DNA from: Quadrisphaera setariae
GTDB lineage: Bacteria > Actinomycetota > Actinomycetes > Actinomycetales > Quadrisphaeraceae
NCBI RefSeq assembly: GCF_008041935.1
Contig: NZ_VKAC01000015.1
Coordinates: 1 to 64,000 of the forward strand
DNA: 64,000 nt
Reading direction: 5' to 3'
Shown: one piece after another, positions 15,985 to 38,111 of the stretch
Numbering within the stretch: the stretch's first letter is position 1
How the letters are laid out: the number at the start of each line of letters is the position of its first letter
Position numbers and translations under genes: made by a program
Notes under the pieces: generated by a model
The model's database searches: none
What the model was told of the DNA's origin: nothing
What the model saw: only the letters and a program-made list of their open reading frames with translations

Positions 15985-16485
15985 GTGAGCTCTCCGACCA
16001 CCCCATCCAGCAGTCCCGGCAGCACCTCCCTGGCCGAGCGCCTCCGCGCCGACCTCAACACCTCCATGCGCGCTCGTGACGAGGTGCGCACCGCGACGCT
16101 GCGCATGGCGCTGACGGCGGTCAAGACCGCGTCCGTGGCTGGCACCGAGGCCCGCGAGCTGTCCGACGACGAGGTGCTCGCCGTGCTGCGCACCGAGGTG
16201 AAGAAGCGCAAGGAGGCCGCCGAGGCGTTCGCCGGCGCCGGCCGCACCGAGTCCGCCGAGCGCGAGCGGGCGGAGGAGGCCGTGCTGGTCGCCTACCTGC
16301 CGGCCCAGCTCGACGACGACGCGCTGGCCGCCGCGGTGGAGGCCGCTGTCGCGCAGGTCGCCGCCGCCGGCAAGACCGGCCCGTCGGCGATGGGCGCGGT
16401 CATGGGCGTCCTGCGCCCGCAGGTGGGGTCCACCGTGGACGGCGGCCGCCTGGCCGCCGCCGTCAAGGGCGCCCTGGCGCACTGA
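15985..16485 (+). CDS. GatB/YqeY domain protein
   Basis: A 166-residue protein consisting of a Ser/Pro/Thr-rich lead (1-17) and a YqeY domain: LAERLRADLNTSMRARDEVR, then EVKKRKEAAEAFAGAGR and GKTGPSAMGAVMGVLRPQV. The domain resembles the tail of GatB, which contacts tRNA in the amidotransferase; free YqeY proteins may act on tRNA-dependent amide formation but the function is not established. The GTG start is set by the divergent neighbour and the -10-like CAGACT. Confidence 0.88.
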   Translation: MSSPTTPSSSPGSTSLAERLRADLNTSMRARDEVRTATLRMALTAVKTASVAGTEARELSDDEVLAVLRTEVKKRKEAAEAFAGAGRTESAERERAEEAVLVAYLPAQLDDDALAAAVEAAVAQVAAAGKTGPSAMGAVMGVLRPQVGSTVDGGRLAAAVKGALAH

Positions 16486-33562: not shown

Positions 33563-33580
33563 GCGTCCTGCGCCCACAGG
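33563..33580 (+). repeat. 18-bp tad-locus promoter element, copy 1
   Basis: GCGTCCTGCGCCCACAGG, identical to 37341-37358. Followed at 33611-33619 by GTCCACAGG. Located 88 bp before the ssd start. Confidence 0.85.
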
Positions 33581-33655
33581 TCCCGCTCCGAGGCGCTGGG
33601 GCCGGCCGCCGTCCACAGGGACGCTGCGCGCGGAGCGCGGCGGCCGCCCCGGCGG

Positions 33656-33661
33656 CAGGGT
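33656..33661 (+). promoter_or_regulatory. -10-like element of ssd
   Basis: CAGGGT, 6 nt before the GTG at 33668; spacing fits the leaderless pattern but the hexamer is a weak match. Confidence 0.35.
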
Positions 33662-33667
33662 CGCCGC

Positions 33668-34741
33668 GTGGACGAGGTGCTGCTGGTGACCGGTCGATCG
33701 GTGGTGGTGGAGCAGGTGCGCCGCCTGGCCGCCGCAGGGGGCGTGCTGCTGAGGGTGGTGGCCGACGCCGCTGCGGCCGGTGCCGCGTGGCGCGGCGCTC
33801 CCGTCGTGCTGCTCGGAGACGACGCCGCCGCCCTCGGGGTGCCCTGGCGCCGGCCCGGCGTGCTCCTGGTGGCGCCCTCGACCCCTGGGCAGGACACCGC
33901 CCCCCTGTGGCGCAGCGCCGTCGAGGTCGGTGCGGAAGGCGTGGCGCTCCTGCCAGGCGACGCCCCCGCCGTCGCCTCCCTCATCGCCACCGCCGCCGAC
34001 GGCCCCGGCACCGGCGGGCTCGTGGTGGGTGTGGTCGGCGGCTGCGGCGGTGCCGGCGCGTCCGTGCTCGCCGCCGCCGTCGCCCGCACCGCCGCGGCGG
34101 CCGACCCGCCCCACCCCGTGGTGCTGCTCGACGCCGACCCCCTCGGCGGAGGCGCGGACGCCCTCGTGGGCGCCCACGACGAGCCCGGCCTGCGCTGGCA
34201 CGACGTGCTGGACGCCCCCGCCCCCCTGCGCTCGGCGGCGCTCGCGGACGGGCTGCCGCGCGGTCGCGACGGCGTCCGGGTGCTCTCGTGGGCGCCCTGG
34301 CCCGAGCCGAGGAGCGCGCCACCGGCCGCGGTCGAGGCCGTCCTGGAGGCCGCGGCCAGAGCCAGCGGGACCGTGGTGGTCGACCTGCCTCGCCACAGCG
34401 GCTCCTCGCTGCTGTGGCGCCTCGACCTGCTGGTCCTGGTGGTGCCGGCCCACCTGCGCGCCGTCGCCTCGGCGGGCGCGCAGCTGCCGGTGCTGATGGG
34501 CCACGCCGGTGACGTCCGCCTCGTGGTGGCCGAGCCGCCGGGCGCCCCGCTGGACCCCGACGACGTCTCCGACGCCCTAGCGCTGCCCCTCCTGGGCCGT
34601 CTCCCGCCGGACCGCGACGTGAGGTCCGCGACGGGACGCGGAGACCCGCTGCCCCGGCCGCGCGGCGCGCTGGCGCGGTGCGCGCGGTCCGTCCTGGCGG
34701 TCCTCGCAGACCCCGACGACCGCTCCGGGCGGGCGGCGTGA
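33668..34741 (+). CDS. ssd: Septum-site-determining protein Ssd / TadZ-CpaE-like
   Basis: A 357-residue MinD/ParA-superfamily protein. An N-terminal receiver-like domain (about 1-105) precedes the ATPase-like domain, but its P-loop reads VGGCGGAGASVLAAAVA with no Walker lysine, so ATP hydrolysis is doubtful. LLDADPLGGGADAL and VVDLPRHSGSSL are the later motifs. As first gene of the tad unit it probably positions the secretion machine, as TadZ/CpaE does; the mycobacterial homologue affects septum formation. It overlaps tadA by GTGA. Confidence 0.85.
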   Translation: MDEVLLVTGRSVVVEQVRRLAAAGGVLLRVVADAAAAGAAWRGAPVVLLGDDAAALGVPWRRPGVLLVAPSTPGQDTAPLWRSAVEVGAEGVALLPGDAPAVASLIATAADGPGTGGLVVGVVGGCGGAGASVLAAAVARTAAAADPPHPVVLLDADPLGGGADALVGAHDEPGLRWHDVLDAPAPLRSAALADGLPRGRDGVRVLSWAPWPEPRSAPPAAVEAVLEAAARASGTVVVDLPRHSGSSLLWRLDLLVLVVPAHLRAVASAGAQLPVLMGHAGDVRLVVAEPPGAPLDPDDVSDALALPLLGRLPPDRDVRSATGRGDPLPRPRGALARCARSVLAVLADPDDRSGRAA

Positions 34742-35787
34742 GCGCCGGCCCCCTGCAGGAGCTCCTCGACCTGCCCGGCACCACCGACGTGCTGGTCAAC
34801 GGTCCCGGCTCGGTGTGGGTGGACCGCGGGGACGGTCTGGCCAGGGTGGACCTGGACGTGGGGCCGGAGGCCCAGGTCCGTGCGCTGGCCGTGCGCCTGG
34901 CCGCGCTGGCCGGACGCCGCCTCGACGACGCGAGCCCGTGCGTCGACGCGGTCCTCGCCGACGGCACGCGCCTGCACGCGGTGCTCCCACCCGTCTCCGG
35001 CAGCGGGACCCTGCTGTCGCTGCGCGTCCCGCGCCGCACCCCGCTCTCCCTCGCGGAGCTCGAGGCGGCCGGCTCCCTGCCGCCGGGCTGGGGCGGGGTG
35101 CTGCGGGCCGTGGTGCACCACCGCTGCTCGCTGCTGGTCTCCGGCGGCACCGGCAGCGGCAAGACCACCCTCCTCGGGGCACTCCTGGGGATGGTCGACG
35201 CTCGCGAGCGGCTCGTGCTCGTGGAGGACTCCGGCGAGCTGTCCCCTGCGCACCCGCACGCGGTCCGCCTCCAGGCGCGGCACGGCAACGTGGAGGGCGC
35301 GGGCGCGGTGGACCAGCGCGAGCTGGTGCGGCAGGCCCTGCGGATGCGGCCCGACCGGCTGGTGGTCGGGGAGGTGCGCGGCGCGGAGGTGGCCGACCTG
35401 CTCATGGCCCTCAACTCCGGTCACGAGGGCGGCTGCTGCACCGTGCACGCCAACTCGGCCTCCGCCGTGCCGGCGCGGCTGACGGCGCTCGCGGCCCTGG
35501 CGGGCATGGGGCCCGACGTGCTGGCGGCGCAGGCCGCCGCGGGGCTCCAGGTGGTGGTGCACCTGCGCCGCGAGGGGGCGCTCCGTCGCGTGGTGGAGGT
35601 CGGCGTGGTCGCCCTCGCCGACCGACCCGCGGGGGCGGGTGGTGGGACCGGCCTCGTGGTGGTGCCGGCCCTGCGCGCGGGCACGGCCCCTGACCACCCC
35701 GGCACGCGCGAGGAGGGCTGGGGCCGCCTGGCCGAGCTGCTGCGCCTGGCCGCGGTCCCGGTGCAGGCGTCCCGGCGCAGGTCGTGA
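34738..35787 (+). CDS. tadA: Type II/IV secretion ATPase TadA/CpaF
   Basis: A 349-residue secretion ATPase, shorter than most CpaF proteins because the N-terminal region is reduced. Walker A is SGGTGSGKTT (Lys142), with the Asp box LVLVEDSGEL, the arginine-rich ALRMRPDRLVVGEVRG (Walker B) and the His box GCCTVHANSA. It powers assembly of Flp-type pili at the inner face of the membrane. Overlaps of 4 bp with ssd and tadB show tight coupling. Confidence 0.93.
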   Translation: MSAGPLQELLDLPGTTDVLVNGPGSVWVDRGDGLARVDLDVGPEAQVRALAVRLAALAGRRLDDASPCVDAVLADGTRLHAVLPPVSGSGTLLSLRVPRRTPLSLAELEAAGSLPPGWGGVLRAVVHHRCSLLVSGGTGSGKTTLLGALLGMVDARERLVLVEDSGELSPAHPHAVRLQARHGNVEGAGAVDQRELVRQALRMRPDRLVVGEVRGAEVADLLMALNSGHEGGCCTVHANSASAVPARLTALAALAGMGPDVLAAQAAAGLQVVVHLRREGALRRVVEVGVVALADRPAGAGGGTGLVVVPALRAGTAPDHPGTREEGWGRLAELLRLAAVPVQASRRRS

Positions 35788-36638
35788 GCAGCACCGGCGC
35801 CGCAGGGGTCGCGCTGTTCGCGGCGCTCCTGGTGGGTGTCGCCGCGTGGCTGGCCGTTCCGGCCTCGGTGCGGGTGCCCAGGTCGGTGCCCGCAGCCCGG
35901 ACCACCGGTGCGGTGCGCGCTCGTCGACCGGAACGCCGAGGCGCGGTCGAAGCGGTGGGAGCGGGGCTCCGCCTGCTCGGCCGACCGCCGGACGCGGAGC
36001 CGCCGGCGGTCAGGGTGGCCCGAGCCGCCTCCGAGGTCGCGGCGCTGCTGCGAGCCGGCGCCACCCCCGCGGCGGCCTGGGCGCCCCAGCAGCTGGGCAG
36101 CACCGGAGCGGGCGGGATGGCGAGCGGCGTGGTGGTCGGGGTGGCGAGCGGTGGTGCGGTCGGCGGAGCCGGGCGCCCGCCCGACCCCGTCACCGCAGCC
36201 CTGGACGAGGCCGCGCGAGCTGCGGCCGCGGGCGAGGATCCCGCCGCCGCCCTGCGCCGCCACCGGGTGGGCGCCCGGCGCAGCGCCACGGGAGCGGGGA
36301 CCGCGCTCGCCTCCCTCGCGCTGGCCTGGCGCACCAGCGAGGTCACCGGCGCTCCCGCCGCCGCCGTGCTGGACGGGCTGGCTGCGGCGCTGCGGGACGA
36401 GGCCGCCGCCACGGACGCCCGCGACGCCTCCCTGGCCGGGCCGCGGGCCACCGCGCGGCTCCTGCTCGCCCTGCCGCCGCTGGGCCTGGCGGCCTCCACC
36501 GCCCTGGGGGCCGACCCGGTCGCCGTGCTCGCCGGCACCCCCGCCGGTCGCTGGTGCGCGGCGCTCGGCCTCGCCTTCGCCGCGGCCGGCTGGGCGTGGA
36601 CCTCGGCGCTCGTGCGCGCCGCGGTGCGAGCGCGGTGA
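35784..36638 (+). CDS. tadB: Tad pilus inner-membrane protein TadB
   Basis: A 284-residue T2SSF-family protein. It has one N-terminal helix (8-28), a cytoplasmic helical domain (RVARAASEVAALLRAGATPA, ALRRHRVGARRS, WRTSEVTGAPAAAVLDGLA) and a C-terminal helix pair (about 222-275). It forms the membrane platform with TadC. Gly/Ala-rich loops (about 110-135) are expanded. GTGA overlaps bind it to tadA and tadC. Confidence 0.85.
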   Translation: MSSTGAAGVALFAALLVGVAAWLAVPASVRVPRSVPAARTTGAVRARRPERRGAVEAVGAGLRLLGRPPDAEPPAVRVARAASEVAALLRAGATPAAAWAPQQLGSTGAGGMASGVVVGVASGGAVGGAGRPPDPVTAALDEAARAAAAGEDPAAALRRHRVGARRSATGAGTALASLALAWRTSEVTGAPAAAVLDGLAAALRDEAAATDARDASLAGPRATARLLLALPPLGLAASTALGADPVAVLAGTPAGRWCAALGLAFAAAGWAWTSALVRAAVRAR

Positions 36639-37261
36639 GCGGCCCCCCGGCGCCGGAGGCCCTCCTCGTGGGGGCGGCGTCCGTGCTCGTGGGGCTCGCC
36701 GTGCTGGTCCTGCCTCGCCGTCCACGCGTGGGCCCAGCACCAGGACACCTCCAGCCGCCGCCGACGCGCGGGTGGTCCCCCGGCCGCCGTGGTGCTCGCG
36801 ACGAGGTCGACCCGCCCCTCCTGCTCGACCTGGTCGCCGCCGTCGTGTCGGCGGGAGCGGCCCCGGTGGCGGCGGTCTCGGCAGTCGCTGCGGTGCTGCG
36901 AGAGACCGCTGGCGCCACTGCGCCCGCTGCGGAGGCGCTGGAAGCGCTGGCCGCCGGTGCCGCCGGGAGGCAGCCGCCCCGCGCTCCGGTCGACCGGTCC
37001 GAGGGCGACCCCCTGGCCGGCGCCCTCGCCGCCCTGCAGCGCTGCCTGTGGATCGCTGAGCAGACCGGGGCTCCCGTAGCAGCGCTGCTGACCTCCTCCG
37101 CCGCTGAGCTGCGCCGGCGCCGGCGACGAGCCGCCGCGCTCGCCGCAGCCCGCCTCGGGGTGCGCGTGGTGGCCCCCCTGGGCCTCTGCACGCTCCCGGC
37201 CTTCGGGCTGCTCGCGGTGGTCCCGGTGCTCCTGTCCCTGGGCAGGGGCCTGCTGGGCTGA
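36635..37261 (+). CDS. tadC: Tad pilus inner-membrane protein TadC
   Basis: A 208-residue second platform protein, a shorter T2SSF domain: LLLDLVAAVVSAGAAPVAAV, then AEQTGAPVAALLTSSAAELRRRRRR and a terminal helix GLCTLPAFGLLAVVPVLLSL. The basic RRRRRR stretch precedes the membrane segment. It is the last gene of the ssd-tadA-tadB-tadC unit; a 221-bp gap with a promoter-like element separates it from the pilin gene. Confidence 0.83.
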   Translation: MSGPPAPEALLVGAASVLVGLAVLVLPRRPRVGPAPGHLQPPPTRGWSPGRRGARDEVDPPLLLDLVAAVVSAGAAPVAAVSAVAAVLRETAGATAPAAEALEALAAGAAGRQPPRAPVDRSEGDPLAGALAALQRCLWIAEQTGAPVAALLTSSAAELRRRRRRAAALAAARLGVRVVAPLGLCTLPAFGLLAVVPVLLSLGRGLLG

Positions 37262-37340
37262 CGCCCCCGGGACCTGTCGACGGCGCTGTCGCCGGGACCG
37301 CTCTCGAACCTCGCGGTGAACCCCCTCCAGGCTCCCCAGC

Positions 37341-37358
37341 GCGTCCTGCGCCCACAGG
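37341..37358 (+). repeat. 18-bp tad-locus promoter element, copy 2
   Basis: Identical to 33563-33580. Followed at 37378-37386 by the same GTCCACAGG, 11 bp closer than in copy 1. Located in the 221-bp gap before the pilin gene. Confidence 0.85.
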
Positions 37359-37482
37359 GTCCTCGCGCCCGGGGCCTGTCCACAGGCCCGCGCCGGGTGC
37401 AGACGGCAGGCCCTCACGGGCAGCCACGGTGGTCTCGGGCCCGGCGCTCGCCGGGCCCGATCCCGCTCCTGAGGAGGACGAC

Positions 37483-37734
37483 GTGACCCACCCCGCCCCG
37501 GCACCCACGAGCCCTGGCACCGCCACGAGCCCCGGCGCCGTCGAGGACGCGCTCGACCAGCAGCACCCCGACCGAGGACCTGGCCGCGGCGACGCCGGCA
37601 TGGCGACAGCGGAGTACGCCATCGCGACCCTCGCCGCCTGCGGCTTCGCGGCGCTGCTGCTGGCTGTCCTGTCGAGCGGCGAGGTGAGGGGCATGCTCCT
37701 CGGTCTCGTGCAGCGCGCTCTGAGCCTGGTGTGA
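37483..37734 (+). CDS. DUF4244 Flp-like pilin
   Basis: An 83-residue protein with a polar Pro/Thr-rich leader and one hydrophobic helix. The junction GDAG-MATAEYAIATLAACGF has a glycine followed by Glu at +5, the type IV prepilin cleavage rule. It is the probable major pilin subunit. GTG 37483 has GAGGAGG 6 nt upstream, excluding a longer start at 37429. It overlaps the following TadE gene by GTGA. Confidence 0.85.
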   Translation: MTHPAPAPTSPGTATSPGAVEDALDQQHPDRGPGRGDAGMATAEYAIATLAACGFAALLLAVLSSGEVRGMLLGLVQRALSLV

Positions 37735-38111
37735 CCCGGCGCCCCCGCCGCGAGGGCAGTCAGGGCCGTCAGGTCGGAGCGGTGACCGCGGAGCTGGCCG
37801 TCGGCCTGGTCCCGCTCGCCGTGGTGCTGCTGCTGGCGGCCTGGCTGGCGGCGGCCGGGACGGCCCAGGTGCGCGTGCAGCTGGCGGCGGGGGCGGCGGC
37901 GCGCGCCCTGGCGCGCGGAGAGGTGCCCGCCGTCGTCGCCGGGCGGGTGGGGGAGGTGACCGCCGGGGCCACGATGAGCGTCCAGCGCTCCGGGGACTTG
38001 CTGCGCGTGGACGTCGAGGCGCCGCTGGACGCGCCCCTGGTCGGCCGCATCGGCAGGCTCACCGGCAGCGCCGTCGTGCCCGTCGAGCTGCTCGACGGCG
38101 AGGACGCGTGA
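37731..38111 (+). CDS. TadE-family minor pilin
   Basis: A 126-residue TadE-like protein. After a basic start, GAVTAELAVGLVPLAVVLLL again puts Glu at +5 after Gly, then a single helix and a small exported domain ending VVPVELLDGEDA. It is probably a minor pseudopilin of the same pilus. GTGA overlaps on both sides show it belongs to a three-gene unit with the pilin and the next gene. Confidence 0.83.
   Translation: MTRRPRREGSQGRQVGAVTAELAVGLVPLAVVLLLAAWLAAAGTAQVRVQLAAGAAARALARGEVPAVVAGRVGEVTAGATMSVQRSGDLLRVDVEAPLDAPLVGRIGRLTGSAVVPVELLDGEDA

Follow-up and report, generated by a model that had tools for sequence, protein, structure and literature searches.

A paired-box promoter element shared by the two tad units of Quadrisphaera setariae and by genes for DNA uptake and processing

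The Quadrisphaera setariae window, the whole 64,000-nucleotide stretch of DNA that was analysed, contains two tad transcription units, ssd-tadABC and the pilin/TadE genes. What do their promoters have in common, and does it point to one regulator? The initial annotation, made from the sequence alone, claimed that an identical 18-mer precedes both units, each time followed downstream by GTCCACAGG. This held, and the coordinates are exact. The features are as follows.

33563 to 33580, forward: box 1 of the ssd-tadABC promoter, GCGTCCTGCGCCCACAGG, core CGCCCACAGG
33611 to 33619, forward: box 2 of the ssd-tadABC promoter, GTCCACAGG, its core 39 bp downstream of the box 1 core
33656 to 33661, forward: -10-like hexamer CAGGGT of the ssd promoter, 43 bp after the start of the second CCACAG
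33668 to 34741, forward: ssd (TadZ/ParA-like), first gene of ssd-tadABC, GTG start taken at 33668
34678 to 35787, forward: tadA, T2SSE ATPase (Pfam)
35784 to 36638, forward: tadB, T2SSF (Pfam)
36635 to 37261, forward: tadC, T2SSF (Pfam)
37341 to 37358, forward: box 1 of the pilin promoter, GCGTCCTGCGCCCACAGG
37378 to 37386, forward: box 2 of the pilin promoter, GTCCACAGG, its core 28 bp downstream of the box 1 core
37425 to 37430, forward: -10-like hexamer CACGGT of the pilin promoter, 45 bp after the start of the second CCACAG
37483 to 37734, forward: DUF4244 (Flp-type pilin) gene, GTG start taken at 37483, with GAGGAGG ahead of it
37731 to 38111, forward: gene at the TadE position

Two of these genes have no Pfam match: ssd was named from its position and from the ParA-like match of its homologue in genome G097, and the last gene is listed by position, with TadE lying downstream of the corresponding box in G097.

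A composite element with two direct repeats

Both copies of the 18-mer are intergenic. The gap between the two motifs is 30 bp at the ssd promoter and 19 bp at the pilin promoter, so that the claimed difference of 11 bp, about one helical turn, also held. We find that the 18-mer is one half of a composite promoter element in which CGYCCACAGG occurs twice as a direct repeat, with 28 or 39 bp from one CCACAGG core to the next, a difference of about one helical turn. A -10-like hexamer, nAnnnT, follows 43-46 bp past the second core, often 6-7 nt before the start codon. At the ssd promoter it ends 6 nt upstream of the GTG, a leaderless-type spacing; at the pilin promoter 52 nt separate it from the start codon. 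The conserved parts are the two boxes, and the 5' extension of box 1, cGTCgtc in the Quadrisphaera source genome, is weaker. The conserved unit is thus smaller than the exact 18-mer match implies. As the boxes were found by pattern, positions within the pattern are conserved by construction.

Within the window, the two tad promoters have the only CCACAG...TCCACAG pairs on either strand, and single CCACAGG cores are present at further sites. Outside the two tad promoters, the whole genome (4.9 Mb in 33 contigs) has no exact copy of the 18-mer. Matches with one mismatch lie at position 120293 of contig C10 and at 16406 of the window, the latter without a second box.

Genome-wide, the strict pair SCCCACAGGN{12,42}GTCCACAG gives 14 matches, compared with 0 for the reversed control and 0.14 predicted from base composition; the claim that the match exceeds chance thus held for the pair. 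Nine of the strict pairs are spaced at 28 bp, four at 39 bp and one at 27 bp. A looser pattern gives 31 matches vs 9 in the control, part of them a dense oriC cluster beside dnaA. Further looser sites with the hexamer in register, at spacings of 29, 38 and 37 bp, precede an integrase, a protein whose family is unknown and a putative secreted protein. Because such sites exist beyond the 14 strict ones, we give the count as about 14-18 in this genome.

The geometry is not peculiar to tad. In 96% of 90 promoters, which include orthologues and are not independent, nAnnnT starts at an offset of 42-49 from the second CCACAG; at other offsets the figure is about 3% per four-base bin. Many have an ATG or GTG 6-7 nt past the hexamer, as expected of leaderless transcripts, and no -35 consensus was seen in the Quadrisphaera promoters. 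Box spacings fall into classes of 27-29 bp and 39 bp, and the 28/39-bp alternatives are also seen beyond the tad units. At the ssd and comEA promoters the congeners differ, some having 39 bp and others 28-29 bp, an alternation that fits a same-face-of-helix constraint. Collectively, these results support the initial claim of a common regulatory element with helix-register spacing before both tad units; that a single protein binds it remains an inference.

Targets in Quadrisphaera and its relatives

The element is not specific to tad: at least 14 promoters carry it, several of them for DNA-uptake or DNA-processing genes. By Pfam, the targets comprise both tad units, SSB, ComEA (SLBB and HHH_3), UPF0102 followed by Mg_chelatase (yraN-comM), RcpC, Peptidase_M23, DUF4192, DUF559/MTES_1575 and DUF2786 (DUF2786/DUF7168). 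AbiEi-like proteins and a weak WXG100-like protein are also encoded downstream of sites. We called comEC, which adjoins comEA, from its position and by eye, and the gene after comM we take to be dprA from position only. Targets were assigned as the nearest downstream gene, which can err, and many ORF starts were set by eye. The initial annotation would have been refuted by the 18-mer at many unrelated loci; this condition does not apply, since most of the other loci have related functions.

Conservation in close relatives had been proposed as a check. A search for TadA covered 59 relatives. Of the 40 tad loci retrieved, 18 had their intergenic regions inspected. Close TadA relatives are encoded in Quadrisphaera granulorum DSM 44889, in Quadrisphaera sp. 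INWT6 and in a record under the title Streptomyces sp. NP160. The Quadrisphaera congeners keep the boxes at the ssd promoter; the pilin-promoter pair is intact in 3/5, and its first box is degenerate in the remaining two. Most of forty further congener sites match Quadrisphaera regulon proteins, so that the congeners keep most targets; those recurring by tblastn are comEA, ssb, comM, RcpC, M23, DUF2786, DUF4192, DUF559 and AbiEi-like genes. Some of the forty precede phage-type integrases or a MerR-like gene. In Pseudokineococcus, of the same family as Quadrisphaera, the paired boxes are absent from the tad promoters (L067, L070, L072).

Further afield, the same pair architecture is found in G097, G034 and G027, genomes of three other families, where the targets are ssb, comEA, yraN, comM, recA, comF, recQ, RcpC, TadE, tadA, M23, DUF4192, DUF559 and DUF222. 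Across the order, pairs at 27-29 bp spacing match in 155/396 genomes, with strong cases (sites/control) in G276 (16/0), G097 (16/0), G275 (16/0), G026 (14/0), G034 (14/1), G234 (13/0), G162 (12/0) and G027 (9/0). The same scan found almost no pairs in families f4, f6 and f7, and mostly none to two per genome in f9, f11, f19 and f20. When the class was scanned with spacings up to 30 bp, G517 (11/0), G580 (11/0), G541 (10/0) and G405 (7/0) stood out, and the f34 genomes were near control level. These family patterns were read from tables by eye, not computed. A record of Arcanobacterium haemolyticum has a 28-bp pair upstream of tadA and two more TCCACAG copies, 28 bp apart, downstream of it.

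The sequence around the boxes varies by lineage. Most G097 pairs (L190-L205) carry GATGC between the boxes and CAGCACCCC after the second, and other lineages have different flanks of their own.

A competence model and its rivals

The analysis shows how the element is built, that it is not random, which genes it precedes and that several families conserve it. The reading that we consider likely is that it is the site at which an activator controls a natural-transformation (competence) regulon, with both tad units among its members; here binding, activation, the involvement of a single protein and the role in transformation are all inferred. In this model, each tad unit would be transcribed from an activator-type promoter that reads, in order, box 1 CGCCCACAGG, box 2 CGTCCACAGG at 28/39 bp core-to-core, and a -10-like CAnnnT, with no recognisable -35. 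Both direct repeats would probably be bound, on the same helical face, by a sequence-specific protein that recruits RNA polymerase and switches on a proposed regulon of the tad DNA-uptake pilus, comEA-comEC, ssb, yraN-comM, rcpC/cpaB, the M23 peptidase and a number of genes that are nuclease-like or unknown.

Two criteria for a competence regulon are met: a shared cis-element lies upstream of DNA-uptake and DNA-processing genes, and relatives keep the same targets. In Micrococcus luteus, transformation requires tad genes and comEC (PMC4322843). Against the model count the families with few or no pairs, and the lack of the element at tad in Pseudokineococcus. Moreover, WXG100-like, DUF4192, DUF2786, DUF559 and AbiEi-like proteins and integrases are not known to have an established role in transformation.

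The main rival, which remains possible, is that the boxes are DnaA boxes and that DnaA binds the pair, coupling the genes to replication initiation or replication stress. In its favour, GTCCACAGG-like sites are densely packed in the oriC of the source genome, where 16/16 CCACA sites have TCCACA; some family copies read TTGTCCACA; and the TCCACAG core is stable across families. One DnaA is encoded, and a PF08299 search of the source genome found no paralogue. However, this reading expects both boxes to fit TTGTCCACA, including T4, and box 1 of the 54 Quadrisphaera promoters does not: C occupies the T4 position in 51/54, vs T in 16/16 oriC sites, and C is also favoured at -2 (49/54). The lineage-specific flanks reach past the DnaA 9-mer, and families without the pair presumably have DnaA too; DnaA is near-universal.

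A second alternative, that the element marks a DNA-damage or stress regulon of the PafBC type instead of competence, is unlikely. It is supported by recA, recQ and DUF222 genes that carry the pair in G034 and/or G097, and by a TGTCGGTG-spacer-nAnnnT element in 5/13 G034 promoters and in the G097 recA promoter (1/16 for G097). This element resembles the PafBC motif, which has the form TGTCRGTG-spacer-TAnnnT. Yet the PafBC-like element that this reading needs was found in 0/54 Quadrisphaera and 0/7 G027 promoters, and comEA-comEC, comM, comF, tad and RcpC belong to DNA uptake or processing. Both recA and ssb are competence genes elsewhere too. Finally, the many copies per genome and the single CCACAGG cores elsewhere in the window could suggest a dispersed repeat, or a sequence of the uptake-signal type, that has no promoter function. 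This is very unlikely, as there are only 14-18 paired copies, gene-oriented, in fixed spacing classes and with a positioned -10 hexamer.

Relation to known systems

Competence regulons elsewhere use the ComK K-box, the sigma-X cin-box or CRP-S sites. Like them, the competence regulon proposed here would use one cis-element for an uptake pilus, comEA/comEC, ssb, recA and comM/dprA-type genes; unlike them, the Quadrisphaera element is a direct repeat with a positioned -10 hexamer, has a different sequence and serves a Tad-type pilus. With DnaA boxes and oriC it shares the TCCACAG core and the direct orientation, but box 1 in Quadrisphaera lacks T4 and the element has a fixed 28/39 spacing and -10 register. 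PafBC acts at a -26 motif (PMC11804915); both motif types occur together in some G034/G097 promoters, whereas the PafBC-like motif is absent from those of Quadrisphaera.

The closest experimental system, M. luteus, likewise has a tad pilus and comEA/comEC, and mutations at its rcpC/cpaB locus alter transformation (PMC4322843, PMC8467076, PMC12849477). Competence there is affected by an HTH_17 protein encoded next to rcpC and by a response regulator (PMC8467076); the genetic candidates named for its regulon are likewise an HTH_17 protein, Mlut_14660, and a response regulator (PMC8467076, PMC12849477). A 2026 paper describes the M. luteus competence regulon as unknown and its upstream regulators as unidentified (PMC12849477). 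Family f6, which we take to be the Micrococcaceae, the family of M. luteus (probable, from two Arthrobacter-like tad loci), shows no enrichment of the CCACAGG pair, so no link to this experimental model could be drawn; the motif TTTTCCACTTA, guessed for f6, was not enriched either.

No description of the motif or of an actinobacterial competence box was found in the literature searched. If the competence model is right, the element would be a first handle on how actinobacteria may switch DNA uptake on, and a defined promoter element would reduce the regulator search in other actinobacteria to a pull-down or reporter experiment. The model also predicts new competence-associated genes, including those for DUF4192, DUF559-type, DUF2786 and M23 proteins. 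A bolder version holds jointly that a dedicated, undescribed activator other than DnaA runs the competence regulon across much of the class and that integrases of mobile elements captured its promoter; we see little to tip the balance either way on this joint claim. An approximate BldC-like query found nothing convincing in the retrieved loci.

Three further observations concern individual sites. Some recA and DUF222 promoters of G097 and G034 (L194, L209, L215-L218) carry the paired boxes together with the PafBC-like TGTCGGTG. Two congener sites, L263 and L272, have the 39-bp spacing and the -10 hexamer with no clear coding gene downstream; the stretches that follow read as non-coding, and Rfam gave no match to them. 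In Quadrisphaera genomes, integrase-type genes lie downstream of the element at L151 and L267, both Pfam Phage_integrase, and at L284 and L270, called by eye.
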